Of a stretch of DNA of 64,000 bases, positions 21,019 through 64,000 are shown in pieces. The stretch is from positions 124,001 to 188,000 of the forward strand of contig CALSFV010000375.1 of assembly GCA_943737045.1 (NCBI GenBank), in the 5' to 3' direction. Numbering within the stretch: the first letter of the stretch is position 1; each line of letters begins with the position of its first letter. The notes below the pieces were generated by a model that worked only from the letters and a program-made list of their open reading frames with translations, was not told the DNA's origin and made no database searches. Made by a program: the position numbers and the translations under genes. The DNA comes from Parapristionchus giblindavisi (lineage: Eukaryota > Nematoda > Chromadorea > Rhabditida > Diplogasteridae).

Positions 21019-21210
21019 AGAGGTAGAGGGAGAGGGAGAGAGAGAGGGAGAGGGAGAGGGAGAGGGAGAGGGAGAGGGAGAGGGAGAGGGAGAGGGAGAG
21101 GGAGAGGGAGAGGGAGAGGGAGAGGGAGAGGGAGAGGGAGAGCTAGAGACAGAGGTAGAGGTAGAGGTAGAGGTAGAGGTAGAGGTAGAGGTAGAGGTAG
21201 AGGTAGAGAT
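21019..21210. repeat. Hexanucleotide arrays (AGAGGG)n then (GTAGAG)n
   Basis: Purine-only array, GAGGGA type to about 21140, then switches to GTAGAG units to 21210. Read on the minus strand it gives a Leu-Tyr run with no meaning as protein. Confidence 0.95.
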
Positions 21211-36356: not shown

Positions 36357-36597
36357 TAATTTCCTTATATAGGATTCTAGTTTCATTGTTTTCTTTCAAT
36401 TTTAGTTGTTTCTTTCTATATTAATACGAGTAATAATGATATTCAAATCTCTGAACAATTGTTCGCATATCACTATAAACATCGACTACTAACACGTAAT
36501 ATCGTGTACATTAGGATATTTAGGCATTGTACAATTCAAATAGAAGAAAATAATTGAAGCAGTCATATAGAGAAACCTCTGAGCGTCAAATACAACT

Positions 36598-36669
36598 GCC
36601 ATGATAGCTCAGTTGGGAGAGCATATGACTGAAGATCATAAGGTCGCCGGTTCGATCCCGGCTCGTGGC
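36598..36669 (+). tRNA. tRNA-Phe (GAA)
   Basis: Same cloverleaf as the other tRNA-Phe copies with one change just after the D arm (GAGCATATGA instead of GAGCGTATGA). It lies 241 bp after the stop of P450 copy 1 and faces the copy at 36996. Confidence 0.95.
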
Positions 36670-36796
36670 ATTCCTTTTTGTTGATTTTTACGAGAAAACT
36701 TATTTGATGATATCTGTTCATACGACTACGACTAAATAAATAATCTTTTCCTAACACCTCATCTTTTCATTTGTTCATGCAGAACTTTGGCTATCG

Positions 36797-36816
36797 TTCT
36801 TCCCGGCTCGTGGCAT
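36797..36816 (+). pseudogene. tRNA-Phe 3'-end fragment
   Basis: TTCCCGGCTCGTGGCATTC repeats the last 15 nt of the tRNA-Phe plus its 3' flank, at the centre of the P450 palindrome. Confidence 0.7.
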
Positions 36817-36995
36817 TCTTTTGCGATAGGCTGAAATTGGCCGGGATGAAAATTTAATTAAACGAAATACATTTGCAAAATTTCTTTATTCTCTTAATTA
36901 TTTTTTCAATATAAGAAGATGGAATGCGAGTAGGAAAACGGCGAAAATAGAGATCATCAGTCTAATATTTCGCATCATTTTCTGCAAAAGAGAAT

Positions 36996-37067
36996 GCCAC
37001 GAGCCGGGATCGAACCGGCGACCTTATGATCTTCAGTCATACGCTCTCCCAACTGAGCTATCATGGC
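36996..37067 (-). tRNA. tRNA-Phe (GAA)
   Basis: Full cloverleaf on the minus strand, convergent with the copy at 36598 across a 326-bp spacer; downstream of P450 copy 2. Confidence 0.95.
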
Positions 37068-37348
37068 AGTTGGAAGCACTCACGGATACACCTATTGTAT
37101 TATTTTCATTTGCATTTCTCCCTTGAAATGTTGAAATGTATGAAACAAAGATCAACTTACACAACATAATGTATTTATTTCTTATATAATAGCAGCCTAG
37201 CAGTGATCACTCGCAGGACTTCGTGTGCTTTGAATAATGGGTTGTACCTTTTACTTTTTTTATAAAATACGAACATATTATCTTTATCATCATAATTACA
37301 CGTATTGTCAACAAGTAAAACCACAAAAAATGAATCATGAAGAGATTT

Positions 37349-40300: not shown

Positions 40301-43300
40301 AAATCCTTTATTTTCGAAAATTCATAAAATTCAATTTGAGTGCCTACTTTCACGGCAAATTGCTAAAATATTGCAGTTTTTCGACTCGAATGCTGCGACA
40401 ATGAGCAAATGACAATGACAATGTGAAGTTTCATGATGAGTAAAATATAGTAGAACTGAAATCACGGCATTCGGCTCACTTTTGAAAAATCGATTTCCAT
40501 GACCCCGGGGTCATAGTAAAAAATATGAATTTTCGAAATTGAACGATTTTCATATTGATTATGTACATTACAAAGTACTATGACGGAATGTTATAGAAAG
40601 CAAGTTGGAAACTGATTCAAACACAATTCTGATTTTTCGCACGCATTTAGAACGAAAATGTTCGAAAAAATGGTTGAAAGGATAGATCAGCCATTGAGCA
40701 TTGGCTGAATATTATTCACATCATTACTACTTTACAATAAGCTGCATAAATGAAAACATTTCAAACGTGAGAATTTTTGAAATTTTCGGACCATGACCCC
40801 GGGGTCATGAAAATCGAAATTTTCAAATTGATCCAAGTGATGGGCTTCGTGTGTCATATCACTCGTCTCTCCTCGAAAGTTTGAGTAGGTCACAATTCCG
40901 CACCAATCGTTTGGAAAATACAGCATTTGTTCGGGAAAACCATCGATGACGGAAATTCGAACGAAAATTTCGGCAAGATGGTCTGACGGGAAGAACCCGG
41001 TTTTAAGTGAAATCAATGCAAAATTGCTTAGGCTACAATACCTGGTCGGAAATCTTTGCAGCAATCTACAACAAGCGATAATTTGCCCGAAAAAACCAAA
41101 ATTTTGAGTCAAAAAAGTGGTTTAGGAATCAACGCACATTCGATGTTAATAGCGAATTAGTAAGCTCTGTGCACCCTAGACGCACCGCAAATGATATTTA
41201 GACTTCATCTCAACAATTTGAGAAATTATGATTTTTAAAAGTTTATTTTTGAAATTAATTTTTCTAATAGCCTGAGGGCACAAACAGGAAATTTCTGCTG
41301 TTTTGTGTAATAAGGGCCGGTGACACTCCTAACACCCAAGTATGGACCCCCAGTTCCCATTGCTAGCGCATGTGTCCGGGGGTGGTCGAGTCTTAACGGC
41401 CATCTCTCTTAATATATTTTCAGGATATTAGTCTAAGACAATAAGGGTAGAAAATAGATGTACCCTTTGTTTGATTCGATCCCTCACTGCATTCTCCATC
41501 TCTGTTCTAAGTGCTTGGAAAGCTCGCGTCAAGGGAGTGTTAACCTGTAAATCCAGTCATTTAGATGGTAAAACATTCCATAGTAATTTACAGCATTTAC
41601 ATTATTATCCTATCACAAGCTCACAGCGGAGACTTTTACATTACCGCTATGGCTATACTCGCTCTTCTTGACTTTTTCGATGTCCACAACTACCTATACT
41701 TATGCTACCCCGTTGTGGCATAGTAAATTATGTATCCAACCATTTTTCTTGTTTATGTCCTATGTATTGTTCATTACGTACCAGCATAATAAAGTTATTA
41801 TTAATAATTTGTCTGCAAGATATGCCGAGTCACCTTTCATTTATTACTTTCTTCTAGATAGCGAAGTCAATATCATCACCTATTTATTTTTGTTCATATC
41901 ATTTTCATGTGTCGTTGCATGCGTGTGCATGTAGATAAAATATAAATATATGTGTGGCCAGGGTAGAGTCAAAATAGCATGAGTGATGGTTATGGGAAAT
42001 TAGACCTCCGACTTACCCTGTGTAAAACCATTCGAAGAATGTAAACAATGAAGGGAAAGGCGTATTTGAGATGGATGATGGCTATATCGAAGTCCTTCAT
42101 GAACATCTACAAGACATTTATTTTCTGTGTTTAAAGGTGGACTCCCGCGAATATTTTCGTGAACAAACTGTGAAGACAGAAGGTTAGCAGTTATTCTACG
42201 CACAGTACACTATTTACTTTATGCTAATTCAGCTTATTGATCGCTAGAATCATGAATGAATCATGCTTGCAATCGCAGGCAAAGGTGCGCTTTTTGAAAA
42301 TAAGAAAGTTCGGCAATAGGATTCGAACCCGCGACCATGCGATATCTAATCAGAAGTCATACCACTGCGCTAAGGGATTGACGACCTTTAAAGGTGGACA
42401 CTCGCGAATGTTCATTCAAATCTCTTGTATCTCGCTTATGCAAGTGAAAAGTGATATACAAGAAGAGTGAGTCACCGCTCGTCAATCCCTTAGCGCAGTG
42501 GTAACACTTCTGTCTAGATAGCGCATGGCCGTGGGTTCGAATAGTATTGCCGAACTTTCCTATTTTCAAAAAGCGCCCCTTTGCCTGAGATTGCAAGCAT
42601 GATTCATTCATGTTTCTAGCAATCAATAAGCAGAATTAGCGTTAAATAAATGATGTACTGTATGTAGCATAACTTTTGCCACCTTTCTGTCTTTACAGTT
42701 TGTTCACGAAAATATTCGCGGGAGTCCACCTTTAAAGGCATTATAGTTAGAATATATTTATTACACCCTGAGGAAATTTGAAATTTTTAAATCGTGGACA
42801 AGGCAAAATTGTTAGCTTTGAAGAGATGAAGATCTGTCATGATTGGGGCGTTAAAGAAGGGGACCCATGAGTTGGCATGACTGACTCAAGCCACGATAAG
42901 CATGCTGGCTATTGTTTATATTATATGGTAATTGGCGTAAGGGATAATGAGAAAATGAGAGAGAAAGTATGTAAATTCGATGAGCACTCTCTACATGCCT
43001 TGAAAGTTGTACTTTCAATGCTCATAGTGAGCTTTAAACATATCGGGAATCAATATCAGATATGTCTTTCGATTCGTGTGATGAATCTCTATCATACTAT
43101 CCGAACAGTCTTATTACGAAAAAACTTGTGGGTCTCCATCTTTAAACCGAAAAATTCGAAAAACGTGTTTTTTTCGGTTTTAAAATAAATAAATAAATGA
43201 AAAAAAAACGAAAAAAACATCTTGAGGTGAAAAAGAGATATACCTCCTTCACAATTGGCAAACGATGATTATTGAAGAGTGTGGACTCCTTTTGTCCCAT

Positions 43301-45958
43301 TACCAATCGACTGATTGTATCCATTGTGTACTCCATGTAGAATCTAATTGTAAGATGTGTAAAAAATTAAAATTTAATTGTATAATTTTTGCAGCATCTA
43401 TACAAGACTGGCTGCGTTATGCATTATAGCGTGTACTCGAGCCAAGTTTTTTTTTCAGCTCTTTACTTATTTCGCTTCGTAAGGATATTTTTGATTCTCA
43501 AAATCTATATCAGTGATATCAAGTACTTTTTATAACTGCGCATCCATGGAAAATAGTTACATTACTGTAAACAAACAATTAAATAGAACACAAAAGCGGA
43601 TGTGTAGACCTTGAATTCGTATTTTCCCGCCCTTTATTTTATGTGTATCTTGCATATTTCAATTCAAATTTTCATTGGCATATTGCTTCTTGAGTTTAAA
43701 ATCTGACTGAAAATTCGCGAATCAAAAGAACAAACAACATTTAAAAAACTGAAATTACTCACTCATGAATATTGAAGGGTCCCTTATTCAGATGTCTCTC
43801 CTCCATTATTCTCACCAGATTCATAGCAGAATCTTCGATGATAGGACGAATATTCTTCAATGCCGAAGTGGAGAAAGATGGAGCAGATATTGCTCTGGAA
43901 TCAGTTATTGATTTAAAAATATATTTTTGGATTTATTTATTTATCGTTTTATCAGTCACTTACTGGGGGAAAATTATGCGATTTGCGAAATTTTAGATCA
44001 TCAGAATACATTTGAGTCATACACGGATTACCCCTGATCGTACAACATTTTCAAATTCCAAAAGTAACGAGTTTTTTGTATCATCATAGTAACATGAGAA
44101 ATAAACACTGCAAGATGATTATCCAGAAACACTGCAAGATGATTATCCTAATAAAAAATGGAAAAATGAATATTACCGTAATCTCTTCCATCTGGCTCCT
44201 CTTGCGAAGAATAGATGCACTTTCGGATCTTTGTCCACATCGGGACTCAGTATGGCGGTCTGAAAATACCGTATCAGTGAGACAAAACGAAGAAATACTG
44301 TGTAAAATGAAGAGAATGTATTTGGAAAATGCGCAAAAAGACTGCCACGAGCCGGGATCGAACCGGCGACCTTATGATCTTCAGTCATACGCTCTCCCAA
44401 CTGAGCTATCATGGCTGATGGGGATAACTCTCAGGGTTACATTAATATTCATTCAGCCTAGATCAGCACTACATTTTTCGGTTGTTCGAAGAAAGACGCT
44501 CTCAGGATATTCATGATAAAAAAGAATAAGCGGGTAAAATAGAGTAAACTGCTTACAGCCTATGTATCTATCCACACGTTTAATCTTTCTGATTTTGATC
44601 CTCTTTTTTTAAACTATCGCATCATTTAAAAAAAAATCTCCATTTTCAATGTCAAAATACTACGATCGAAACAATTCCTTGAAAGGCACATGCGGTCTGA
44701 ACGTATTAAACGTCGAAACACGGACTCACACTTTTCCTCTCAACGATGACGAAACCCATGCTTACCTTTCTCGAGTAAAAGTTGTCAAACTGCTTGAAGA
44801 ATATCTCATTGACCATATCAGGATCGGACGTTACCAGAATATTGGTTGAGCCTTCTCGGAGACCATAAACTGTGCCATATTCCTGTAATTGAATCGATAT
44901 TGATCTACACTTGACAGTTTTTTTCGAGACTCTTACAGTTCAACGAAATTTTGCCATTTATTTTTGAAATTCATGCATTTTATTTTCTGATATTGAGAAT
45001 AGTTGTTTTTAGCCCAATAAAGTTTTGCCATTTATTTTTGAAATTCATGCATTTTATTTTCTGATATTGAGAATAGTTGTTTTTTTTAGTTTTTGTTTAT
45101 ATATATATATTGCAAATAACCAAAAGTGCGCAGAACTCTTTTGGTCATGCCAATAAGACCCTATAAGAATAGAGTGAAACATATTTGATCGCGCAAGAAA
45201 AAATTGCCATCACATGTCAAAAGGCAAACAAGGCAAAAGAAGATTTGTTTTCGAGACTGGTTATTCTAGTCACACGATGTCTTGTGGGAGATCACTGCTT
45301 GTGACAATTCAAGGCCAATTCAGTCCGGAGGGCCTAATCTCTTCTTCGGACTTACTTTACTTTATGTTAGGGTAACCAGAGAAATATCTATTAGATCTAG
45401 CTCCAACGAACCTTTGTCCACTCTCGTTGTTTGAGAATTCTCGGTTCGTTCTTTATGAAGAGTGATTTGGAGTTTCCGAAGATTATCGATTCTTGTCGCA
45501 CTTGTGGTACTCCCCGTCGAGTCCAGTAGGTCGATTTGTGCAAGAAATAACTAGAATTTGTTTATCATTGACATGATCGAGATGATTACATTGGTTTATT
45601 GATAGACATCATTGACAGTGTGTCCTCCGTCTGATAAGTCTATGTGAAATTAAAGGGAGCGTAACCTCACTCAATGGTCTCTTCGATTGCTCTCTCGTTG
45701 TTAGAGAACAGAAAAATAGTGTGCGCAATGAAGAGACCATTGAGTGAGGTAACGCTCCCTTTAAGTGAACTGTGGTCGAGCTATTTTCTCCCTCCGCTCT
45801 GGCAATTCTCACTCGTAGATTAAGAAAGCAGGAGAACGCTGTCAGGGCGGAGAGTTTCAAATTTGCTCGGGTGTGACTTTAAAACTTCCGTTCAAAAAAA
45901 AAACTCACAAGTACACAGCTGCAGTCAGTGTGGCTATCGCCACCAAAAATGCTATCAT
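37349..45958 (-). CDS. Cytochrome P450, copy 2 (inverted duplicate, exon 7 missing)
   Basis: Fifteen exons with the same phases as copy 1: 45909-45958, 45412-45550, 44766-44882, 44177-44259, 43763-43894, 43244-43343, 41464-41544, 39259-39378, 38920-38980, 38752-38861, 38035-38120, 37783-37926, 37626-37706, 37487-37559, 37349-37426. Haem loop [11 protein letters not shown]-helix AGFDTTA and ExxR are present and all frames are open. The equivalent of copy 1's 90-nt exon 7 ([20 protein letters not shown] region, helices F-G) was not found in 41545-43243, which instead holds two tRNA-headed elements. Skipping it keeps frame but removes 30 residues of the substrate-access region, so activity is doubtful. 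Intron 8 holds a 2-kb foldback and intron 3 a tRNA-Phe. 484 residues as joined. Confidence 0.85.
38341..38411 (-). tRNA. tRNA-Thr (CGU), intronic in P450 copy 2
   Basis: Identical over 71 nt to 35092-35162 and located in the equivalent intron 11, on the host gene's sense strand, although the intron sequence around it has diverged. Confidence 0.95.
39418..41408. mobile_element. 2-kb foldback element in P450 copy 2
   Basis: The left arm from 39430 (ACTCGATCATATTCGACCAC) and the right arm ending near 41395 are inverse copies for about 800-900 bp with scattered mismatches. Blocks such as GGGCCGGTGACACTCCTAAC and TGACCCCGGGGTCATG recur in both. The centre is near 40400. No transposase frame is seen. 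Confidence 0.85.
41545..42130. other. Intron 6/7 remnant of P450 copy 2
   Basis: No P450 exon, repeat or gene is recognised here. Confidence 0.4.
42131..42393 (-). mobile_element. tRNA-headed MITE/SINE-like element
   Basis: TTAAAGGTGGACTCCCGCGA at 42131 to GACCTTTAA at 42393. A minus-strand tRNA-like block at 42307-42381 has A-box TTAGCGCAGTGG and B-box GGTTCGAATCC. Same family as 8584-8856. Confidence 0.75.
42386..42735 (+). mobile_element. tRNA-headed element, second copy in opposite orientation
   Basis: Shares the CCTTTAAAGGTGG junction with the previous copy and ends GGGAGTCCACCTTTAA. The tRNA-like block at 42481-42557 has its B-box (GGGTTCGAATAG) partly decayed. Confidence 0.75.
44344..44415 (-). 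tRNA. tRNA-Phe (GAA), intronic in P450 copy 2
   Basis: Full cloverleaf in intron 3, same strand as the host gene; absent from intron 3 of copy 1. Its upstream flank (44416-44560) is homologous to that of the tRNA at 28597, so the gene moved with flanking DNA. Confidence 0.95.
44949..45090. repeat. Direct tandem duplication, 74-bp unit
   Basis: TTTTGCCATTTATTTTTGAA ... GAGAATAGTTGTTTTT occurs twice in a row in intron 2 of P450 copy 2. Confidence 0.9.
45652..45762. repeat. Palindromic MITE family 2
   Basis: Near-identical to 9171-9281 but in the opposite orientation; intron 1 of P450 copy 2. Confidence 0.85.
45772..45880. repeat. MITE family 1 copy
   Basis: TCCGCTCTGGCAATTCTCAC and complementary GGGCGGAGAGTTTCAAATTT; 10 bp from the family 2 element. 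Confidence 0.75.
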
Positions 45959-48943: not shown

Positions 48944-49122
48944 TTATAAGTAATCTTCGATAAGAATAAACGAACGTTCATCAGAAGAGTCTACAAGATA
49001 TTTTGAAATGAAATTGTTGATATCATTGCCATCGTCTTGATATAAGAGGGGTTAGGATAAGCCCACCGGAAAATATTGAGTTGGTTCTTTTTTCTGCCAT
49101 TTTTTACGGCTGCAAATGTGGC

Positions 49123-49520
49123 AAATGCTCGTGCCATATTTTACGTGTGTATTATTGGCAGATTGATAAAAATAATTTATCTCCAAATTTGAACAGTGAA
49201 AATATGGCGGAGAAAAGATCATTATAAATGGCATAATTGACGGATGAAAATATGGCTAGAGGTAAGTTGACAAATATTACGGGTGAAATATTGGCTATAA
49301 GGTGATGGCGTCTACATTTTGAAATGTGGCAAATAATCAAGCTGCATAAATGGCATGACATGGGCATGCCAGAAAATCACAGGTAAAAGTTGGCAATAAA
49401 GTTTGAAAACAGTTAAGCCAGAATTGCAAGTGTAAAATTTGTCGGAATGAGGGCAACCAAAAATGATCGGTGCAAAATTGGCAGGTCGCAGAAACAAAGT
49501 TGTTGTCAGATCTGACAGCG
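49123..49520. repeat. Degenerate edge of left satellite array
   Basis: Diverged units around TGGCAAAT and GTAAAATATGG motifs. The corresponding right edge (63297-63782) has the same style but does not align well with it. Confidence 0.6.
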
Positions 49521-50655
49521 TAAAATATGGTTCGCCATTTTTTACAGTGTAAAATATGGTTCGCCATTTTTTACAGTGTAAAATATGGTTCGCCATTTTT
49601 TACAGTGTAAAATATGGTTCGCCATTTTTTACAGCGTAAAATATGGTTCGCCATTTTTTACAGTGTAAAATATGGTTCGCCATTTTTTACAGTGTAAAAT
49701 ATGGTTCGCCATTTTTTACAGTGTAAAATATGGTCCGCCATTTTTTACAGCGTAAAATATGGTTCGCCATTTTTTACAGTGTAAAATATGGTTCGCCATT
49801 TTTTACAGTGTAAAATATGGTCCGCCATTTTTTACAGTGTAAAATATGGTTCGCCATTTTTTACAGTGTAAAATATGGTTCGCCATTTTTTACGGGGTAA
49901 AATATGGTTCGCAATTTTTTACAGTGTAAAATATGGTCCGCCATTTTTTACAGCGTAAAATATGGTTCGCCATTTTTTACAGTGTAAAATATGGTTCGCC
50001 ATTTTTTACAGTGTAAAATATGGTTCGCCATTTTTTACAGTGTAAAATATGGTTCGCCATTTTTTACAGTGTAAAATATGGCTCGCCATTTTTTACAGCG
50101 TAAAATATGGTTCGCCATTTTTTACAGTGTAAAATATGGTTCGCCATTTTTTACAGTGTAAAATATGGTCCGCCATTTTTTATAGTGTAAAATATGGTTC
50201 GTCATTTTTTACAGTGTAAAATATGGTTCGCCATTTTTTACAGTGTAAAATATGGTCCGCCATTTTTTATAGTGTAAAATATGGTTCGTCATTTTTTACA
50301 GTGTAAAATATGGTTCGCCATTTTTTACAGTGTAAAATATGGTTCGCCATTTTTTTACGGGGTAAAATATGGTTCGCCATTTTTTACAGCGTAAAATATG
50401 GTTCGCCATTTTTTACAGTGTAAAATATGGTTCGCCATTTTTTACAGTGTAAAATATGGTTCGCCATTTTTTACAGTGTAAAATATGGTCCGCCATTTTT
50501 TACAGTGTAAAATATGGTTCGCCATTTTTTACAGTGTAAAATATGGTTCGCCATTTTTTACGGGGTAAAATATGGTTCGCCATTTTTTACAGTGTAAAAT
50601 ATGGTCCGCCATTTTTTACAGTGTAAAATATGGTCCGCCATTTTTTACAGCGTAA
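49521..50655. repeat. 29-bp satellite array, left arm
   Basis: About 39 units of ACAGTGTAAAATATGGTTCG + CCATTTTTT. Variants are TCCGCC or CTCGCC for TTCGCC, and CAGCG, CGGGG or TAGTG for CAGTG. The core TTTTACAGTGTAAAA is itself palindromic. Confidence 0.97.
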
Positions 50656-52024
50656 AATCTGTCAGAATAAAACAATTAATGGGGTATATGGCTAAACAAG
50701 AAAAAATGAGTGATTCCAAAGATTAGGAGGGATGGAAATGGGGAAGCGGGATAATACAATGATGATACACATAATATTGCTAGATAATATACATATAATA
50801 GAAGATGCACAAATGCGAGTGGATTCGTTGCCGACCTCGACCAACTGGAAACAAATAAATCAATAATTGTAATTCGTAATCGTAGCTGTGTGTGACCCGA
50901 TTGAACCGCTGAAAGATTTTTTTTTAAATCAGTTCAAAATGCACCAGTAATTAATTGTTGTTCAGGAGTGAGCTTGGGTCGGACATCGATTGCTCGGCTG
51001 ATGTTTTTTAGCGCTCTTGCCTAGGATAGCGAAATTGTAACACAATCATGCACAGTGTTTCCAGAGTTGCGACAGAGTAACGAGGTAGAAAGAAACGCCA
51101 GTTACAGTAGCGCCGGAAAGTCAGTGCCAACTTTTTGTTTTTGTTATATTTAGTGAACCAAGCGTGCTATGGGGCCGCTCTCGCGAGTTCTTATGGGAAA
51201 TTTATCAAGGAATCCGGCCCTGATATTGTGGACTCATGAAAATTTCTCGTGATTGCGTAATGATGACGCAATCGAAGTCTGCGATTTTTATCAACCGCAG
51301 CGGCCTTGATGCAAAATGGCGGCAGCAAACTCATATCTCAGCTCCAAGACATGCTAGAGACTCGTACTTGGGATCAAAATGATCCTTATGATGTCCCAAA
51401 TACGCCGTGAAAGTTTGGTATTGATCGGACCACAATTGCCTTCAGTTCACCAAAAAAATAACTTTTTCAGATGACCAAGACTGATGTTTGCCGTGAAGAT
51501 GGGAAGCAAGTTGCTTTCACCAAAGTGTGAGGATGACTTCTGGGATGGATTTGGTCTATTTTAGCACATGTACCATATTTTTAGAAAAATCACTCTCATA
51601 ATTGTAGGCCCTCAAAGTGAGGTTATCTGAAAAAGTTACTTTTTGGTGTACTGAAGGCAATTGTGGTCCGATCAATACCAAACTTTCACGGTGTATTTGG
51701 GACATCATAAGGATCATTTTGATCCCCAGTACGAGTCTCTAGCTTGTCTTGGAGCTGAGATATGAGTTTGACGCCATTTTGCATCAAGGCCGCTGCGGTT
51801 GAAAAAAAATCGCAGCAACCTAACAAGGGAACCACAAATGTCGCGGACACTCAGTGCTAAATTCGTTGACACAGGTCGACTAGGACCCCCCAGGGGGTCA
51901 CAGAACTGTTTTGAAATGTCCGCATATTTTCTTCTTTGGTACCGAAAATCGATTATGAAAATGTGATGGAAATTTGGGCGCGAGCCCAGTGGAATAGTGT
52001 CAAACACTCAAAGAACACAGTCTG

Positions 52025-52099
52025 TGTCCTCTGTAGCCAAGTGGTTAGAGTGCGGGATTAGCTTTTGGAATGTCGTGGGTTCGAATTACCCCTTGTACA
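52025..52099 (+). pseudogene. tRNA-like block in left arm of the TAA-flanked element
   Basis: A-box GTAGCCAAGTGG and B-box GGGTTCGAATT with tRNA spacing, but the acceptor stem does not pair. The mirror copy is at 52986-53060. Confidence 0.6.
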
Positions 52100-52330
52100 A
52101 TTTCTTTTGCTGTATTTTTTCTTTGCTTTCCAACATGCGGTTTCAAAGTCAAACTTCATCTTCAACAACAACGATTGGCGGGCATCGTGCCTGAAACAGG
52201 ATCCATGGACGCTATACGGTAGAATTGACGGATTTCGGTATAAGTGGTGAATACGATAGCTTTTGTTGCGTAGATCGGATACGGTAGCATGGATAGGATA
52301 CAGTAGTATAGAACTGGAAGGGCCAGTACC

Positions 52331-52860
52331 TGTCTTGCCGTAGTAGGTGAGCGCCTCGATGTCCTTGGCGCACTTGATCCACCTGAACTCCCTGTTCATG
52401 ACTGCTAGACTCTTGCATCCTTCTCCTTTGTTGTTCCTCTTCCTCTTGCCCGAGCGATAGAAGGTGTATGCTTCGTCCTTCTGGGAAATACATGTCGTGA
52501 GGGAGAATAAAAACAATCAATCACAAACAATAAAATACTCACCATCGCCTTTGTCCACAGATGCCGTTGGTTCTTCAGTAGAGCACTCGGTTCATCGAAG
52601 TCCCACTCCACATCACTCTCTTCTCCCGTGTCTTCCTTGACCGTCTCCACCTTTTCACGCACCGTCAACTCTCCCGCCTCCGCTCCACGAAGCATCATTA
52701 CGATGCGATCAACCCACCTCATCTCCGACGCTTTGAGGGAGTCACGAGTGAAATGGGAGGAGAGGGAGAGGTCGAAGGTGAGGGCGATCTGGACAGAAAC
52801 AGCCTTGGCAGACACTGGGTCATAGTCGAACTCCATTCGAGAAGAAAAAAAATCCGTCAA
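52331..52860 (-). pseudogene. Captured gene fragment inside the TAA-flanked element
   Basis: Two exon-like blocks with splice signals on the minus strand: about 52543-52840 (FDYDPVSAKAVSVQIALTF ... SDVEWDFDEPSALL) and 52331-52481 (KDEAYTFYRSGKRKRNNKGE ... EFRWIKCAKDIEALTYYGKT). The codon usage is more GC-rich than the surroundings and the protein looks real, but the family is not recognised. It is probably host exons captured between the element's arms. Confidence 0.5.
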
Positions 52861-52985
52861 TTCTACCGTATAGCGTCCATGGATCCTGTTTCAGGCACGA
52901 TGCCCGCCAATCGTAGTTGTTGAAGATGAAGTTTGACTTTGAAACCGCATGTTGGAAAGCAAAGAAAAAATACAGCAAAAGAAAT

Positions 52986-53060
52986 TGTACAAGGAGGGAT
53001 TCGAACCCACGGCATTCCAAAAGCTAATCCCGCAATCTAACCACTTGGCTACTGAGGACA
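52986..53060 (-). pseudogene. tRNA-like block in right arm of the TAA-flanked element
   Basis: Same block as 52025-52099 in inverse, with a better B-box (GGGTTCGAATCCC). Confidence 0.6.
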
Positions 53061-53575
53061 CAGACTGTGTTCTTTGAGTGTTTGACACTATTCCTCGGGG
53101 CTCGCGCCCAAATTTCCATCACATTTTCATAATCGATTTTCGGTACCAAAGAAGCAAATATGCGGACATTTCAAAACAGTTCTGTGACCCCCTGGGGGGT
53201 CCTAGTCGACCTGTGTCAACGAATTTAGCACTGAGTGTCCGCGACATCTGTGGTTCCCTTGTAAAACAATTTTTCTGAGTAGCCGAGGCGTAGATCTCAA
53301 ACTTATAGAAGAACGGTAGGCTGGAAAAAAATTTTCCGCGGAGTTATGATTTTTCAAAAAAGTGGACTTCGATTGCGTCATCATTACGCAATAACGAGAA
53401 ATTTTCATGAGTCCACAATATCAGGGCCGGATTCCTCGATAAATTTCCCATAAGAACTCGTGGGAGCGGCCCCATAGCACGCTTGGTTCACTAAATATAA
53501 CAAAAACAAAAAGTTGGCACTGACTTTCCGGCGCTACTGTACACCCATAGGTCGAAAAGCTTGTTACACATTACC

Positions 53576-53725
53576 AAGTCTGACCGCATTTTGAGCCAAA
53601 ATTTCCCAAAAATCGAAAAACGTGACAGCATTTTGAGCCAAAATTTCACAAACATCGAAAAACCTGACCGCATTTCGACCAAACTTTGCTAAAAATTGAA
53701 AAAAACCTGACCGCATTTTGAAAAC
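53576..53725. repeat. Short tandem repeat, ~47-bp unit (mirrored at 60620-60770)
   Basis: Three to four units around CTGACCGCATTTTGAGCCAA and AATCGAAAAA. Confidence 0.8.
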
Positions 53726-53874
53726 TGATAACCTAGTTATTCGACCTATGGTTACACCAATGCTTTGTTGGAGGATGACTGAATAAGCCAAGAAAATAAC
53801 AAAAAATTGCAAATAAAGCATATTAAACAATTCCAACCTATAGTTACATGATTAGTCTGCGGGGGTGCTAGACG

Positions 53875-56800
53875 TCAGTCAGAAGAATCTTCCTTGGACG
53901 CTGCGGCATCAGCTCCATCTGCGCACGAAGTCATGGATTCCTTCTCGGAATGCTGCACTGAAAAAATCAATATATGAGATATCAACTACAGTATACAGCG
54001 TTCGGTCAATATATAATGCCCTAACCTATCCTAAACGAATCAATCAATAAGTAGTATTATACGAATCCCCCAATAACCAACCCAAGTCGCCTCGAGGCAG
54101 CTCATGACTATAATTTTCTGTAAGTACACTCAGAAATTGCCTATTGACAATAGGCAATTTTCGACGAAGCACAATCGATATTTAAGGATTTAAAAAGTCA
54201 CTAAATGAAGGGCAAAAATCAATCGAAAATAATTCACTACCGTCCCTTTTTATGCTCATCCCATATTGATACTAAAACAGATTATTATAAGAAATAAATA
54301 TTTCATCCACCGTGCCTCCTTCAGACATGGTCTATGGTTATCCCTTGGGATAGACCCACCCACAAAAATTTGCCTATCATGGGTACCCACCCGCAAAATT
54401 GGACCATAAATTGACGATTTTCTTGAAATTTTCACGATTTTGGGGTACCCACATGCGTTTTTTCTCAAAATCTGGTTACCCACAGGCGTCTTTGACACAA
54501 AATCTAGGTACCAACACGCATTTGAAGGGTCTGGGATATTGATAGACCATCACTGACCTCCTCATTCAGCTTTCCACTCAACGAAAACTTGATCTTCGCG
54601 TGCATTACGTCACCAATCGAATTATCTGTAAAAAATTGTTTAAACAAGTACAACATGTAATATAAGGTGTTTCACAACCCGGGAGCCCGTTCTGTTACGT
54701 GGGTTACGATTTTCAATATCTAGTGGATTATTTTCTGGATTTTACTACGTTATTAGCGTCGATTTAGAAAGAACATCAAGATATTATATAACATGATGAC
54801 CGATGCAAGAAGAAACAGAGACGCCAGTCAAGAGATGGAGGGACGATTTCGTGAAGGCAGCTGGTCCACAATTCATGCAAATTGCGAGGCACAATCGTTC
54901 GGAATGGAGAAATGTCATGGCAACCCAGCTACGAAACACCCATTACCTGATAAAGTTGTTCAATGTCAATGTCAAGTGACCAATGAAAAGAGGAAAGGAA
55001 CCCCATTGATCTGCGAAGGACCCTTGCCATGATCACCGCATCAATATGCGATTTGACCCACTATGGATTACTCAAGTCACGTTTCAAACAAAATAACTAC
55101 CAAGTAACCATGACTGTCTATGAATCGATAAATCAATCAATCAATAAATCAATAACTACAGTATACCTTGCATTGGAATACGGTGAATTGCATCAGCGGC
55201 TACCATCCATCCCACATCCGCGATTCAAAGGCAGTGTGTCGATCATTAGCTGAAATGAGAGATCGAAATTAAGAGGCATACGGTAGCAGTAAGATACGGT
55301 AGGGCCAGGATACGGTAAGATGTGAATACGACACGATACTGGTACTATCATCGAGAATAGCTTTTTTATAATTAAGTTTAGTGCATAGGTGGGCACGCTG
55401 GGGGGGGGGGGAGGCTGTGCACAAACCGGAGAATTGTAAGGCAAGGCTATGCGCTTGGCCATTTTTTAGCAGCTTTGATTGGGAATTTTCCAATTTTTGC
55501 GAGGCAAAGCTATGCGCAAAGCCCACGCAAGGGAAGGCAAGGCTGTGTGAAAAAACGAATTCGTTTTCACGCGCCCACCTATTGTTTAGTGCAAGCATAT
55601 TTTAAAATGTACATTGTAAGTATGAATTAAAACTACACTCAAAAACAATTCCCTAGTTAAGGTACCCCAAGAGAATTGTTTTTTTAAAGTGTTCGATGAG
55701 AAGCATACTCTGCATTCCTCTAGATTAGTGTTCAATGAACAAATCAATCAATAAAATATTATACCGAACACTCTTCCTACTCCCATCCAAGTATTCGCTC
55801 GGAAGATGCTCTCCTTGACCTGTAGTCAATCGATATTAGATCATTATCTAAACACTCATCTTTGTCCTTCTACCTTAATCATGCTCTTAGATCTCATACC
55901 GTTACCTAATATTAAATCTTCTACAGTAACCCTAATATTTAATCTTCTACAGTAACCCTAATATTTAATCTTCTACAATAACCACGACTGATCTTTGATA
56001 TTTACCTGAGGCAGAACATTATGTGTGCTTCGATCCTATTCAGTTCGAGCAGTATGTTCTCCGCAATATAGTCGCGATTTCGCTTTGTGACTAAAAAGAC
56101 AAAAATGATCAATGACGCCTAAAACCATACGTGGGCACCATCCGGGAAAATCAGGATAGCAGGCTGGCCGCAGCTAATTTTAAATTTTTTAAAGAAAACG
56201 TTTCGTAAACCAGAACAGAAGTAAGACGTGAAATCAATCGTGAATACCGTATACCTCTAATCGGTCCAGGTTATTCTACTTATGATGGCATCTTCAGTCA
56301 GATCGATATTCGGATTTCCAACTTCTTCGTCTCACCAGCATCCGTTCGAACTCTACGAGATTATTGATTGATTGAATGAAAAGTCGATTGTTCATCTGTC
56401 AACAGTTTCTTGATTTAAAAGCTGCCCTATTATTGATCAATACACTTCGAAAGGTTAACTTTAATCCGGTGAATATTGATTGACTGAATACATATTATTT
56501 TATATCTCTCTAATCTGTACTTACGAATTCATCGAAAGATCTTCGTAGCCTGTGTACAGCTGCTCAGGTCCAGTCATATCGATTATCTGAAAGTACTATT
56601 ATGAATTAGTGGCAACATACAACAATCCTCAGTCTTACAATGAAATGAATAAAGGTGAGCTAGACCGTATTTTTTCTATGACAATCAATCAATACCCGGC
56701 TACCGTAAGCTCAAAATAGCGTAATCATTCGTCAATAGAATATCCAAACCTTTGTTACTGTGTACTCAAAATACGATCGTTTTTGGATAGGAAGTTATTG

Positions 56801-57275
56801 GAAGAAGTGCCAGAATGTCTACAACATAGAACGAAAACAAGGTACTCACTCTTTTAACGACCATTTCCTCTATAAAGACTTCCAGATCATCATCCGCTCC
56901 TCTTCCATCATCACCGGCAATGGCTACTAGAACAGATAAAATAGAAAAGTTAGAAAATGCAACAATATATAATCAATTAAAAGGAAAATCACAATGTTTT
57001 TCGAGAACATTTTCCATACGTCAGTTCGCGATAGAAATTGCATACTTCGTATTGTACTCAAAAACATCAAACTTTAAGCCTAAACCCCAGTCGTGAGCTA
57101 CAATTGAAATATACGTACCATAAAGAGCTTGTCCTGTGGACCGAAAATTGCGTAGGGGATTGAATGCGTAGTACACGCTTCGGTCGTCGATAGAGAACGG
57201 TATCTTAGTGGTACATTTTAGAAGGAGAAAAGAAAGTAAAATAAACTGAAATCGAAGCTTTGATGCAAAACGCAT
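53875..57275 (-). CDS. Secreted protein gene starting in the loop of the giant palindrome (3' part uncertain)
   Basis: Exon 1 (57119-57275) lies in the unique loop and encodes a signal peptide (LRFQFILLSFLLLKCTTK after MRFASK). Exon 2 (56850-56926: AIAGDDGRGADDDLEVFIEE) and exon 3 (56525-56586: IIDMTGPEQLYTGYEDLSM) join in phase. A tiny 17-nt exon (56336-56352) and an exon at 56006-56090 (KRNRDYIAENILLELNRIEA) also fit by phase. Further exon-like blocks at 54558-54625 (MHAKIKFSLSGKLNEE) and 53875-53957 (final SKEDSSD and stop) are plausible but their order could not be closed. No family is recognised. The right arm carries a mirrored copy without exon 1. Confidence 0.5.
54790..54971 (+). pseudogene. 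Non-LTR reverse transcriptase C-terminal relic (left arm)
   Basis: TPVKRWRDDFVKAAGPQFMQ ... RHNRSEWRNVMATQ then a stop at about 54971: the conserved tail of RTE-like reverse transcriptases. It is mirrored in the right arm. Confidence 0.6.
55384..55584. repeat. Short element with TAGGTGGGC ends (mirrored at about 58759-58959)
   Basis: ATAGGTGGGCACGCTGGGGG with a G-run at one end and CGCGCCCACCTATTG at the other; internal AAGGCAAGGCT and AGGCAAAGCT direct repeats. Confidence 0.65.
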
Positions 57276-57491
57276 AGAAAATTAAAAGCAGAATACGAAA
57301 ACGAAACTACGACCGTAAATCTACGACTGGGTTTTAGGCTTAAAGTTTGATGTTTTTAAGTACAATATGAAGTATACAATTTCTATCGCGAACTGACGTA
57401 TGGAAAATGTTCTCGAAAGAGATTTTGATTTTTCCTTTTAATTGATTATATATTGTTGCATTTTCTAACTTTTCTATTTTATCTGTTCTAG

Positions 57492-60470
57492 TAGCCATTG
57501 CCGGTGATGATGGAACAGGAGCGGATGATGATCTCGGTCTTTATAGAGGAAATGGTCGTTAAAAGAGTGAGTACCTTGTTTTCGTTCTATGTTGTAGACA
57601 TTCAATCCATTGACGAATGATTACGCTATTTTGAGCTTACGGTAGCCGGGTATTGATTGATTGTCATAGAAAAAATACGGTCTAGCTCACCTTTATTCAT
57701 TTCATTGTAAGACTGAGGATTGTTGTATGTTGCCACTAATTGATAATAGTACTTTCAGATAATCGATATGACTGGACCTGAGCAGCTGTACACAGGCTAC
57801 GAAGATCTTTCGATGAATTCGTAAGTACAGATTAGAGAGATATAAAATAATATGTATTCAGTCAATCAATATTCACCGGATTAAAGTTAACCTTTCGAAG
57901 TGTATTGATCAATAATAGGGCAGCTTTTAAATCAAGAAACTGTTGACAGATGAACAATCGACTTTTCATTCAATCAATCAATAATCTCGTAGAGTTCGAA
58001 CGGATGCTGGTGAGACGAAGAAGTTGGAAATCCGAATATCGATCTGACTGAAGATGCCATCATAAGTAGAATAACCTGGACCGATTAGAGGTATACGGTA
58101 TTCACGATTGATTTCACGTCTTACTTCTGTTCTGGTTTACGAAACGTTTTCTTTAAAAAATTTAAAATTAGCTGCGGCCAGCCTGCTATCCTGATTTTCC
58201 CGGATGGTGCCCACGTATGGTTTTAGGCGTCATTGATCATTTTTGTCTTTTTAGTCACAAAGCGAAATCGCGACTATATTGCGGAGAACATACTGCTCGA
58301 ACTGAATAGGATCGAAGCACACATAATGTTCTGCCTCAGGTAAATATCAAAGATCAGTCGTGGTTATTGTAGAAGATTAAATATTAGGGTTACTGTAGAA
58401 GATTAAATATTAGGGTTACTGTAGAAGATTTAATATTAGGTAACGGTATGAGATCTAAGAGCATGATTAAGGTAGAAGGACAAAGATGAGTGTTTAGATA
58501 ATGATCTAATATCGATTGACTACAGGTCAAGGAGAGCATCTTCCGAGCGAATACTTGGATGGGAGTAGGAAGAGTGTTCGGTATAAAATTGTATTGATTG
58601 ATTTGTTCATTGAACACTAATCTAGAGGAATGCAGAGTATGCTTCTCATCGAACACTTTAAAAAACAATTCTCTTGGGGTACCTTAACTAGGGAATTGTT
58701 TTTGAGTGTAGTTTTAATTCATACTTACAATGTACATTTTAAAATATGCTTGCACTAAACAATAGGTGGGCGCGTGAAAACGAATTCGTTTTTTCACACA
58801 GCCTTGCCTTCCCTTGCGGGGGCTTTGCGCATAGCTTTGCCTCGCAAAAATTGGAAAATTCCCAATCAAAGCTGCTAAAAAATGGCCAAGCGCATAGCCT
58901 TGCCTTACAATTCTCCGGTTTGTGCACAGCCTCCCCCCCCCCCAGCGTGCCCACCTATGCACTAAACTTAATTATAAAAAAGCTATTCTCGATGATAGTA
59001 CCAGTATCGTGTCGTATTCACATCTTACCGTATCCTGGCCCTACCGTATCTTACTGCTACCGTATGCCTCTTAATTTCGATCTCTCATTTCAGCTAATGA
59101 TCGACACACTGCCTTTGAATCGCGGATGTGGGATGGATGGTAGCCGCTGATGCAATTCACCGTATTCCAATGCAAGGTATACTGTAGTTATTGATTTATT
59201 GATTGATTGATTTATCGATTCATAGACAGTCATGGTTACTTGGTAGTTATTTTGTTTGAAACGTGACTTGAGTAATCCATAGTGGGTCAAATCGCATATT
59301 GATGCGGTGATCATGGCAAGGGTCCTTCGCAGATCAATGGGGTTCCTTTCCTCTTTTCATTGGTCACTTGACATTGACATTGAACAACTTTATCAGGTAA
59401 TGGGTGTTTCGTAGCTGGGTTGCCATGACATTTCTCCATTCCGAACGATTGTGCCTCGCAATTTGCATGAATTGTGGACCAGCTGCCTTCACGAAATCGT
59501 CCCTCCATCTCTTGACTGGCGTCTCTGTTTCTTCTTGCATCGGTCATCATGTTATATAATATCTTGATGTTCTTTCTAAATCGACGCTAATAACGTAGTA
59601 AAATCCAGAAAATAATCCACTAGATATTGAAAATCGTAACCCACGCAACAGAACGGGCTCCCGGGTTGTGAAACACCTTATATTACATGTTGTACTTGTT
59701 TAAACAATTTTTTACAGATAATTCGATTGGTGACGTAATGCACGCGAAGATCAAGTTTTCGTTGAGTGGAAAGCTGAATGAGGAGGTCAGTGATGGTCTA
59801 TCAATATCCCAGACCCTTCAAATGCGTGTTGGTACCTAGATTTTGTGTCAAAGACGCCTGTGGGTAACCAGATTTTGAGAAAAAACGCATGTGGGTACCC
59901 CAAAATCGTGAAAATTTCAAGAAAATCGTCAATTTATGGTCCAATTTTGCGGGTGGGTACCCATGATAGGCAAATTTTTGTGGGTGGGTCTATCCCAAGG
60001 GATAACCATAGACCATGTCTGAAGGAGGCACGGTGGATGAAATATTTATTTCTTATAATAATCTGTTTTAGTATCAATATGGGATGAGCATAAAAAGGGA
60101 CGGTAGTGAATTATTTTCGATTGATTTTTGCCCTTCATTTAGTGACTTTTTAAATCCTTAAATATCGATTGTGCTTCGTCGAAAATTGCCTATTGTCAAT
60201 AGGCAATTTCTGAGTGTACTTACAGAAAATTATAGTCATGAGCTGCCTCGAGGCGACTTGGGTTGGTTATTGGGGGATTCGTATAATACTACTTATTGAT
60301 TGATTCGTTTAGGATAGGTTAGGGCATTATATATTGACCGAACGCTGTATACTGTAGTTGATATCTCATATATTGATTTTTTCAGTGCAGCATTCCGAGA
60401 AGGAATCCATGACTTCGTGCGCAGATGGAGCTGATGCCGCAGCGTCCAAGGAAGATTCTTCTGACTGACG
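57492..60470 (+). pseudogene. Mirrored 5'-truncated copy of the palindrome gene (right arm)
   Basis: The right arm repeats the exon blocks of the left-arm gene from exon 2 on. It lacks exon 1, which exists only in the loop, and exon 2 here has a 2-nt deletion (GATCTCGGTC against GATCTGGAAGTC on the left) that shifts the frame. It is therefore read as a non-functional copy. Confidence 0.65.
59372..59553 (-). pseudogene. Non-LTR reverse transcriptase C-terminal relic (right arm)
   Basis: Mirror of 54790-54971, identical at the protein level over the block compared. Confidence 0.6.
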
Positions 60471-60805
60471 TCTAGCACCCCCGCAGACTAATCATGTAAC
60501 TATAGGTTGGAATTGTTTAATATGCTTTATTTGCAATTTTTTGTTATTTTCTTGGCTTATTCAGTCATCCTCCAACAAAGCATTGGTGTAACCATAGGTC
60601 GAATAACTAGGTTATCAGTTTTCAAAATGCGGTCAGGTTTTTTTCAATTTTTAGCAAAGTTTGGTCGAAATGCGGTCAGGTTTTTCGATGTTTGTGAAAT
60701 TTTGGCTCAAAATGCTGTCACGTTTTTCGATTTTTGGGAAATTTTGGCTCAAAATGCGGTCAGACTTGGTAATGTGTAACAAGCTTTTCGACCTATGGGT
60801 GTACA

Positions 60806-62027
60806 GTAGCGCCGGAAAGTCAGTGCCAACTTTTTGTTTTTGTTATATTTAGTGAACCAAGCGTGCTATGGGGCCGCTCCCACGAGTTCTTATGGGAAAT
60901 TTATCGAGGAATCCGGCCCTGATATTGTGGACTCATGAAAATTTCTCGTTATTGCGTAATGATGACGCAATCGAAGTCCACTTTTTTGAAAAATCATAAC
61001 TCCGCGGAAAATTTTTTTCCAGCCTACCGTTCTTCTATAAGTTTGAGATCTACGCCTCGGCTACTCAGAAAAATTGTTTTAGGTTGCTGCGATTTTTTTT
61101 TCAACCGCAGCGGCCTTGATGCAAAATGGCGTCAAACTCATATCTCAGCTCCAAGACAAGCTAGAGACTCGTACTGGGGATCAAAATGATCCTTATGATG
61201 TCCCAAATACACCGTGAAAGTTTGGTATTGATCGGACCACAATTGCCTTCAGTACACCAAAAAGTAACTTTTTCAGATAACCTCACTTTGAGGGCCTACA
61301 ATTATGAGAGTGATTTTTCTAAAAATATGGTACATGTGCTAAAATAGACCAAATCCATCCCAGAAGTCATCCTCACACTTTGGTGAAAGCAACTTGCTTC
61401 CCATCTTCACGGCAAACATCAGTCTTTCCCGCACGCATTCACTGTGCGTGCGCGCGCCCCTCCCCTCCCTCCCCTCCCCTGGACGTGCGCCTCCGAAACG
61501 AGTGCATGCCCGCTTAACGTTTGCCGTGAAGATGGGAAGCAAGTTGCTTTCGCCAAAGTGTGAGGATGACTTCTGGGATGGATTTGGCATATTTTAGCAC
61601 AAGTACCATATTTTTTAGAAAAATCACTCTCATAATTGTAGGCCCTCAAAGTGAGGTCATCTGAAAAAGTTATTTGTTTGGTGAACTGAAGGCAATTGTG
61701 GTCCGATCAATACCAAACTTTCACGGCGTATTTGGGACATCATAAGGATCATTTTGATCCCAAGTACGAGTCTCTAGCATGTCTTGGAGCTGAGATATGA
61801 GTTTGCTGCCGCCATTTTGCATCAAGGCCGCTGCGGTTGATAAAAATCGCAGACTTCGATTGCGTCATCATTACGCAATCACGAGAAATTTTCATGAGTC
61901 CACAATATCAGGGCCGGATTCCTTGATAAATTTCCCATAAGAACTCGCGAGAGCGGCCCCATAGCACGCTTGGTTCACTAAATATAACAAAAACAAAAAG
62001 TTGGCACTGACTTTCCGGCGCTACTGT
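60806..62027. mobile_element. Nested foldback with CAGTAGCGCCGGAAAG ends (right arm)
   Basis: Uninterrupted counterpart of 51104-53542. Its centre has duplicated TTGCCGTGAAGATGGGAAGC-type sequence on both sides of a GC-rich core (GTGCGTGCGCGCGCCCCTCC). Confidence 0.8.
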
Positions 62028-62471
62028 AACTGGCGTTTCTTTCTACCTCGTTACTCTGTCGCAACTCTGGAAACACTGTGCATGATTGTGTTACAATTTC
62101 GCTATCCTAGGCAAGAGCGCTAAAAAACATCAGCCGAGCAATCGATGTCCGACCCAAGCTCACTCCTGAACAACAATTAATTACTGGTGCATTTTGAACT
62201 GATTTAAAAAAAAATCTTTCAGCGGTTCAATCGGGTCACACACAGCTACGATTACGAATTACAATTATTGATTTATTTGTTTCCAGTTGGTCGAGGTCGG
62301 CAACGAATCCACTCGCATTTGTGCATCTTCTATTATATGTATATTATCTAGCAATATTATGTGTATCATCATTGTATTATCCCGCTTCCCCATTTCCATC
62401 CCTCCTAATCTTTGGAATCACTCATTTTTTCTTGTTTAGCCATATACCCCATTAATTGTTTTATTCTGACA

Positions 62472-63296
62472 GATTTTACGCTGTAAAAAATGACGGACCA
62501 TATTTTACACTGTAAAAAATGGCGAACCATATTTTACCCCGTAAAAAATGGCGAACCATATTTTACCCCGTAAAAAATGGCGAACCATATTTTACACTAA
62601 AAAATGGCGAACCATATTTTACACTGTAAAAAATGGCGGACCATATTTTACACTGTAAAAAATGGCGAACCATATTTTACCCCGTAAAAAATGGCGAACC
62701 ATATTTTACACTGTAAAAAATGGCGAACCATATTTTACACTGTAAAAAATGGCGAACCATATTTTACACTATAAAAAATGGCGGACCATATTTTACACTG
62801 TAAAAAATGGCGAACCATATTTTACACTGTAAAAAATGGCGAACCATATTTTACACTGTAAAAAATGGCGAGCCATATTTTACACTGTAAAAAATGGCGA
62901 ACCATATTTTACACTGTAAAAAATGGCGAACCATATTTTACACTGTAAAAAATGGCGAACCATATTTTACACTATAAAAAATGGCGGACCATATTTTACA
63001 CTGTAAAAAATGGCGAACCATATTTTACACTGTAAAAAATGGCGAACCATATTTTACACTGTAAAAAATGGCGAACCATATTTTACACTGTAAAAAATGG
63101 CGAACCATATTTTACGCTGTAAAAAATGGCGAACCATATTTTACACTGTAAAAAATGGCGAGCCATATTTTACACTGTAAAAAATGGCGAACCATATTTT
63201 ACACTGTAAAAAATGGCGAACCATATTTTACACTGTAAAAAATGGCGAACCATATTTTACACTGTAAAAAATGGCGAACCATATTTTACACTGTAA
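62472..63296. repeat. 29-bp satellite array, right arm
   Basis: About 28 units of the same monomer in inverse orientation, one unit shortened at 62597 (TTTTACACTAAAAAATGG). It has about 11 fewer units than the left array. Confidence 0.97.
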
Positions 63297-63860
63297 AATA
63301 TGTCATGCCAGAATTGCCGGTGTCTATTATGTCCGGTCTCAACTCTGCCATTTTTGCAACCGTCAAATATGGCAAAAACTAATTTCGAAAAAAATGCCAA
63401 TTTTTCACTTTGCATTTTTGGATTAAAAATCGTGTGACAAATATGACACCTTCAATTCTGGCAATTCATCTCCCTTTCAATTCTGCCACTTTTGCTCCTC
63501 TCCATTCTGGTTCAAATTATTTCTGCCTAATTTTACGAAGTCATAAATGGAATGCCAGTTTTTCCCTCTGCATTTCTGCCATTAAATTGTCTGCCAAATT
63601 TGCATCTTGATTTTATGGATAATTGTTTTGTTCCCAGAATAGCCAAATTATCACATTGTAAATATGGATCTCTCCAAGTTTTCACCTCGTTTTTTTGTCA
63701 GAAGTTATCTCTCCAAATAATAAAGTGTAAAATTTGGCATCTTCACATCTGACAATTTTGCAACAAGAAATTATGGCATGCCACATTTACAGTCGTAAAA
63801 AATGGCAGAAAAAAGAGCCAACTCAATATTTTCCGGTGGGCTTATCCTAACCCCTCTTAT

Positions 63861-64000
63861 ATTTATAATGAGACATCACGTTGTACTCCTAGAGAATCAT
63901 ACATTGATTGGATATTCTAACATTGGAATGATCTTTGATCTTTATTCATGAAGGACCTCAGCGGGGACGAGGTGATCTTTGATATTTATTCGTCAAGGGC
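63861..64000. other. Right flank, no feature
   Basis: 140 bp with TGATCTTTGATCTTTA motifs of the kind seen in several introns of this window; no gene is visible before the window ends. Confidence 0.4.

Follow-up and report, generated by a model that had tools for sequence, protein, structure and literature searches.

Introduction

Galileo, a P-superfamily element of Drosophila, has inverted repeats of about 0.3–1.26 kb (to 1,264 bp) and 7-bp duplications in the sections of PMC3573991 that deal with it, and THAP-domain sites lie in its long inverted repeats according to the title of PMC3688188. Tetris, a foldback element of Drosophila virilis, is given arms of up to 1,735 bp, a ∼220-bp repeat and 8–10-bp duplications in the corresponding part of PMC4079207, and Tm1, a Mutator/Foldback element of root-knot nematodes, is given class averages of 0.4–2.6 kb, 9-bp duplications and a known transposase in that of PMC3169594. 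Here, a 14.8-kb palindromic unit is described from a 64,000-nucleotide stretch of the Parapristionchus giblindavisi genome (contig C375, positions 124001–188000; hereafter the window, with C-numbers denoting contigs), where it represents a dispersed family with 4-bp target-site duplications.

The window family fits the structural description of foldback elements, namely long inverted arms with internal tandem repeats. It resembles Galileo in its foldback-like long inverted repeats, which can contain tandem repeats in both, and copy-to-copy sequence exchange has been proposed for Galileo in the part of PMC3573991 concerned; it differs from Galileo and the P superfamily (7 bp) in its 4-bp duplications and in mirrored arms of about 5–9 kb. 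With Tetris it shares apparent non-autonomy, arms built of a terminal domain and then a tandem-repeat domain, arrays resembling satellites and a miniature inverted-repeat transposable element (MITE) relative with the same ends (PMC4079207, same part), but its duplication is 4 bp rather than 8–10 bp and its arms are larger. Tm1 is likewise foldback-like, from nematodes and provided with a host-like motif, and comprises MITE-like and transposase-bearing classes (PMC3169594, same part), whereas the 4-bp duplication separates the window family from Tm1 and Mutator (9 bp). Sola shares the 4-bp duplication and has inverted repeats of 11–1124 bp and some elements >15 kb; the Sola passage of PMC10741241 makes no mention of palindromic arms, and the same source gives a TA duplication for Tc1/mariner. 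No Sola transposase was seen in the frames scanned, no Sola model having been sought by name. Unlike Tc1/mariner, the window family has duplicated ATTT and ATGT as 4-mers.

Maverick/Polinton elements carry polymerase, integrase and capsid genes and generate a 6-bp duplication, whereas the window family has a 4-bp duplication and no such Pfam match in the frames scanned. Palindromes whose arms exchange sequence by gene conversion occur on the human Y chromosome. The arms of palindromes on willow sex chromosomes are also kept alike by gene conversion, in the relevant part of PMC7023750. Such palindromes share apparently conversion-kept arms with the window unit but are fixed, whereas the window palindrome transposes. 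The preliminary description of this locus suggested that the family could be undescribed, and this is not contradicted by the open-access literature searched, which yielded no earlier report of such a family; subscription papers, Repbase and Dfam lay outside that search.

The window element

The reading adopted here, with a probability of roughly 0.72, is that the unit is a 14.8-kb palindromic DNA transposon from a family of no fewer than 16 complete copies, that a transposase acting in trans likely moves it and that gene conversion likely keeps its arms near-identical. It is carried by the termini, the equal 4-bp flanks, the empty sites of three sister copies, the presence of one left (L) and one right (R) end in every typed copy and the concerted evolution of the arms. 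The parts of the unit, in window coordinates, are as follows.

49040–49043, no strand: left target-site duplication, ATAT; same 4-mer at 63859–63862
49044–49123, plus: L terminal inverted repeat, starting AAGAGGGGTTAGGATAAGC; 77/80 identical to the R end
49124–49514, plus: L-specific subterminal block; short weak matches to the R block; L-type in other copies
49515–50658, plus: 29-bp satellite array of the left arm, 39.4 copies; consensus unit contains one ATAT
50659–51823, plus: outer left arm, mirror of 61079–62472
51823–53262, no strand: 1.4-kb nested element, its inverted ends of 413 bp beginning CAAGGGAACC; left arm only
53262–56739, plus: inner left arm, 99.77% identical to 57606–61081 over 3,478 columns
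56813–57094, plus: innermost left arm, 95.8% identical to 57323–57603
57095–57322, no strand: single-copy palindrome centre, 228 bp; one copy per A-type element (n = 7)
57323–57603, minus: innermost right arm, mirror of 56813–57094 (95.8%)
57606–61081, minus: inner right arm, agreeing with the left arm at 3192/3198 positions of the reference interval
59788–60021 (right arm; mirror ∼54322–54555 in the left arm), no strand: short interspersed repeat, absent from both C206 arms
61079–62472, minus: outer right arm, mirror of 50659–51823; 61427–61654 without a collinear left-arm counterpart
62473–63302, minus: 29-bp satellite array of the right arm, 28.7 copies
63303–63778, minus: R-specific subterminal block; short weak matches to the L block; R-type in other copies
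63779–63858, minus: R terminal inverted repeat, 77/80 identical to the L end
63859–63862, no strand: right target-site duplication, ATAT, equal to the left 4-mer

The full unit thus occupies 49044–63858 (14,815 bp), with limits 1–2 bases from those first given. The ∼80-bp inverse termini with about three mismatches that were noted from the sequence are borne out, and so is the 29-bp satellite array in each arm, a fuzzy count giving 39 + 28 units inside the element and 0 in the remainder of the window. The flanks, described at first as ATAT/TA, are indeed equal on both sides, but the actual duplication is the 4-bp ATAT. The likeness of the inverted ends is limited to the outer ∼80 bp, the subterminal blocks beyond (∼0.4–0.5 kb) matching weakly and in short pieces. 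Further in, 49826–51476 is 97.9% identical to 61655–63302 (outer arm and part of the satellite) and 51477–51823 is 99.7% identical to 61079–61426. At the mirrored site of the nested element the right arm is empty and has one TAA, a triplet duplicated around the nested element, which is presumably Tc5-like; a tRNA-like stretch inside it was not called by ARAGORN or Rfam.

A dispersed family with two distinct ends

A search of the genome (251 Mb in 703 contigs) with the 24-bp terminus, allowing two mismatches, produced 42 matches, 21 per strand and all of them exact, and none for a reversed-pattern control. With 42 occurrences of the terminus in 251 Mb against none for the reversed control, a chance origin of the window unit is ruled out. 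Convergent pairs of ends define 16 complete elements of 1.4–59 kb. Their lengths (kb) are:

C292 1.4; C232 1.4; C280 2.3; C214 5.4; C431 11.4; C663 13.0; C270 13.6; C205 14.6
window 14.8; C262 19.7; C206 19.9; C238 20.9; C651 20.9; C81 21.4; C297 38.9; C397 59

C397 was examined in two end stretches only, and for C270 the outer ends were taken, a second R end lying 0.6 kb inside the outer end within the satellite. Ten ends fall outside the 16 elements: this extra C270 end, two of C423 and seven singles (two in C652 and one each in C295, C244, C36, C286 and C68).

The same 4-mer stands on both sides of all 16 complete elements, being ATAT in 14, ATTT in one and ATGT in one. Because ATAT is its own reverse complement, it is the ATTT and ATGT copies that are diagnostic of a 4-bp duplication. 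One L and one R end are present in 15/16 complete elements, the left end of C651 being left unclassified by the pattern used.

Empty sites were sought by joining the flanks with one 4-mer, for 14 junctions, 13 in full and one over most of its length, the best 40 of 5,868 candidates being scored. Among the matches listed, empty sites with one ATAT occur for at least three of the 14 junctions, those of the C81, C431 and C292 copies. The C81 site (C120:133460–133681) matches at 100% over 222 bp across the junction and may be the uninserted allele of a polymorphic locus, which would imply recent movement. The C431 and C292 copies sit in repeats, many other members of which cross the junction at 98–99% and mostly 96–99% identity, respectively. 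Conserved inverted termini at unlike sites, a duplication of fixed length and empty sites are the features of a DNA transposon with terminal inverted repeats. The preliminary description, which took the unit for a transposed foldback element and proposed looking for further genomic copies of its end, is thus upheld by the 42 matches, the equal flanks of all complete copies and the three sister empty sites.

Palindromes spanning from about half (C81) to most of the length are found in 10/11 examined copies >11 kb, the exception being C297, a composite with a sister-family element inside. The short copies C292 and C232 have little or no palindrome. By sequence, the window and C81 copies form subfamily A1 (98% alike) and C663, C270, C431 and C205 form subfamily A2 (about 98%); C206 is about 84–86% identical to the A1 and A2 copies. 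Subfamily B (C238, C262 and C651, about 98–99%) shares with A mainly the ends, the satellite and the adjoining spacer.

Two arrangements of ends stand apart. The unit at C423:152222–158985 has two R ends, inverted 4-mers (ACAT/ATGT) and 502-bp flanks that are exact inverted copies (502/502); it is likely an assembly fold-back, or else a real inverted duplication. At C652:27122 and C652:107004, two R ends 80 kb apart share the same 30-base flank and lack satellite in the examined parts, and the one with more sequence examined adjoins a tandem coding-like repeat.

The element inside the C297 satellite (C297:281212–299438) has ends AAGAAGGGTAAAGATAAGC and ATAT on both flanks. Its 21-base terminus has 30 exact genome matches and five with one mismatch; three-mismatch rows were dropped, the reversed control giving 61 matches at that level and many rows being ends of the first family. 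Convergent ends of this sister family form 15 pairs spanning 1.1 to 46 kb, of which C297 and 3 kb of C234 were examined in sequence and the others by position only; pairs 8–46 kb in span lie in C33, C234, C29, C261, C132, C238 (418004–453840) and C42. The C234 stretch contains 45.8 copies of a 26-bp satellite, related to that of C297 and with one ATAT in its consensus.

Concerted evolution of the arms

All 14 arms from the A-type set (seven copies, from A1, A2 and C206) were aligned with window 57606–60803 as the reference, keeping colinear BLAST pieces that span >40 reference bases; B-type copies lay outside this alignment. Arms of the same element are 98.9–99.9% identical (window 3192/3198, C431 3140/3142, C205 3100/3112, C663 3082/3101, C270 3081/3100, C206 2096/2105 and C81 3126/3162), and arms of different subfamilies are 95–96% identical between A1 and A2 and 81–82% between either and C206 (differences of 4–19%). 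For the 21 pairs of elements, variable sites were classed as shared by both arms, side-specific (the L arms agree and differ from the R arms) or other. The counts in this order are 142/0/8 for window–C431, 368/0/14 for window–C206, 21/1/40 for window–C81 and 0/18/2 for C663–C270. Side-specific differences occur in 2/21 pairs, 18 of the 19 such sites being in C663–C270.

Differences shared by both arms therefore prevail between subfamilies, indicating that the arms have not been evolving apart since a common palindrome, which would make such differences rare. This concerted evolution is a point that the preliminary description lacked. Between close copies one-arm differences prevail, so that homogenization is slower than transposition. 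The arm-specific differences common to C663 and C270, which lie at separate sites, show that a unit was copied to a new site while its two arms were distinct. In a tree, arms pair by element strongly for the window, C431 and C206 (3/7) and weakly for C81 and C205. Every one of the seven A-type copies contains the 228-bp centre a single time, the six others being 76–97% identical to that of the window; the palindrome is thus older than their split. The centre is inverted relative to the L and R ends in 2/7 copies (C663 and C205), which could reflect recombination between arms or mis-assembly and was not used as evidence.

Inserts in the arms show the same behaviour. The short repeat at reference 2183–2416 is present in both arms of the six A1 and A2 copies and in neither arm of C206, where the alignment pieces overlap by eight bases at the insert site, the pattern expected of an empty site that retains one target copy; the repeat is found in at least 21 places outside the elements among the matches listed (best 40 of 3,252 candidates). 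A 457–469-bp insert at reference 2464 occupies the L arm only in C663 and C270 and both arms in C205, and is absent from both arms of C431, C81, C206 and the window. At reference 928, C206 has 3,839 bp in both arms and A2 has 187 bp in both arms, and inserts of 3.8 and 2.0 kb are present in the right arm only of C81. The simplest reading of these patterns is that an insert landed in one arm and that the partner arm then acquired a copy. Inserts are unlikely to have arisen independently at mirrored positions; the ancestor of C663 and C270 may have lost the insert from one arm, which would itself be conversion or precise excision.

A mechanism consistent with these observations would have a DDE-type (Asp-Asp-Glu) transposase, supplied in trans, recognize the L and R ends and insert the unit at ATAT-type 4-mers, with gene conversion between the arms as the homogenizing process. 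A nested element would land in one arm, and conversion from that arm would write a copy into the other, so that the arms would grow symmetrically and the one-arm and two-arm states of an insert would be stages of one process. The satellite would offer one ATAT per consensus unit as a target, and the sister-family element in C297 did land in satellite at ATAT. A wider proposal, to which slightly better than even odds are given, is that of a mobile palindrome with arms of ∼5–9 kb under continual arm-to-arm conversion, a symmetric accumulator of cargo leading from a 1.4-kb satellite-bearing MITE to 20-kb palindromes, in which the asymmetric L and R ends would preserve transposability.

Coding content

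Exon-like pieces with splice-like borders (GTAAG and TTTCAG) recur in the arms of A-type copies, and all four that were checked in the right arm of the window are open. The borders, like the repeats, have a nematode-like look. Two such pieces are:

59711–59797 (mirror 54546–54632), plus: exon-like piece, open; 61–69% amino-acid identity to C656, C658 and C155
58245–58346 (mirror 55999–56100), plus: exon-like piece, open to its splice-like border, in which a reported stop lies

This stop was at first considered as decay, which was dropped since it falls in the border and the query contained artificial joins. One exon-like piece has a stop in its C206 version and another has one in the relic C231; the innermost piece has an open frame on the left side and a shifted one in the right arm. 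A search of the genome with the joined exon-like protein identified no intact host gene, the loci in C656, C658 and C155 each giving no more than a single short match. C231:172710–173569 was rejected as a donor gene, having a stop in an exon-like piece and looking like a decayed relative. Thus, the earlier suggestion that the unit carries host genes is borne out in part: there are short exon-like pieces, one of them resembling three outside loci, and no intact gene was recognized. The family carries host-like pieces, with no working gene recognized among them.

No transposase was found in the six frames of the scanned part of C651, where the sole match, to RING, stayed below threshold (18.1 bits; cut-off 27.3), nor was one apparent by frame length and eye in the examined parts of the satellite-less ends C286, C36, C244 and C652. 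The frames scanned in the sister-family element of C297 contain a mariner piece (Transposase_1), a sub-threshold HTH_48 match and likewise sub-threshold Tc3-type helix–turn–helix scraps; the mariner and Tc3-type pieces are taken for nested elements. C297 also has a protein-kinase exon fragment (plus strand of two stretches scanned in part), and a further stretch of it with several open frames proved to be composed of other high-copy repeats. A 205-amino-acid frame of DNA-binding appearance in C238 and C651 was set aside as a separate repeat (best 150 of 952 candidate places scored) and had no relative in a search of a protein collection. In the C286 stretch (L053:2507–3145, minus strand), a 213-amino-acid frame with a MATH domain (MATH_2, E 3.1e-17) lies ∼4.5 kb inside the lone R end.

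Evaluation of alternative explanations

Several observations weigh against a palindromic transposon with conversion-kept arms. An empty site with one ATAT, proposed early on as a check, exists for the three sister copies but was not found for the window copy among the matches listed (best 40 of 5,868 candidates, with a repeat-filled list). Within A2, one-arm differences outnumber shared ones (C663–C205 2/0/30 and C663–C431 16/0/21, with C270 behaving likewise), and the two C81 arms show 36 differences, of which 29 fall within the inner third, so conversion would have to be slow or patchy. The tree pairs the C663 and C270 arms by side, as expected for recent copies of a whole unit. No Pfam match, to a transposase or any other gene, was obtained in the six stop-to-stop frames of window 51000–57652 (left arm and centre), a kind of scan that could miss spliced genes or families without a model, which bears on the non-autonomy of the element. 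Conversion is itself inferred from the pattern of differences, with which a palindrome that formed again de novo about one and the same centre would not be strictly incompatible.

The strongest rival develops this last point: palindromes may have formed anew in each lineage from single-armed elements, by template switching or as inverted dimers at transposition, their arms being alike because they are young. Near-identical arms inside one element are predicted equally by such an origin, short copies with little or no palindrome exist (C292 and C232), and other palindromes are common in the window. It is nevertheless unlikely, given that the same 228-bp centre occurs once per element in all seven A-type copies despite arms that differ by up to 19%, and that an insert found in one arm of some copies and both arms of another was most simply copied between existing arms.

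It is less probable still that the unit is an autonomous member of a known superfamily with 4-bp duplications, such as Sola, whose transposase is split into small unrecognized exons in the arms. The duplication and the size do fit Sola as far as its section in PMC10741241 goes, and the exon-like pieces of the window have open frames and splice-like signals at their borders. However, none of the frames scanned in the window and C651 copies gave a transposase Pfam match, the piece that resembles three outside loci is the one with a stop in C206, another has a stop in C231, and the innermost is open on the left and frame-shifted on the right.

Palindromes are hard to assemble and the C423 unit has the look of a fold-back, but an assembly artefact in which hairpin or chimeric reads fold one arm back is very improbable for the family, in view of ten palindromic copies between unlike flanks with equal direct 4-mers, inserts private to one arm (the nested element in the left arm of the window and the 3.8 + 2.0 kb in the right arm of C81), L and R ends that differ, and arm-specific differences common to C663 and C270 at separate loci.

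Other repeats in the window

Two further nested palindromes, at window positions 32582–45556 and 34610–38986, look older (matches of about 73–97%) and contain mirrored pairs of tRNA-Phe and tRNA-Thr (36597/36994 and 35092/38340). The window also contains an 891-bp inverted repeat that is 99.1% identical (17355–18245 and 18880–19770) and an AGGGAG hexamer array of 32 copies (21015–21208).

Implications

The preferred reading, that of a transposon whose palindromic arms are likely maintained by gene conversion, means that transposition can spread a near-perfect palindrome of 11–21 kb, which is several times the size of the 1–2 kb foldback arms given for Galileo and Tetris in the sections cited above. 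A transposing palindrome is replicated many times within a single genome, in related copies and with an insert in no, one or both arms. To our knowledge, sex chromosomes have been the main setting for work on the concerted evolution of palindrome arms, and there each palindrome is a single locus. With replicates and intermediate states available in this family, it becomes possible to measure how fast, in which direction and over what tract length conversion proceeds.

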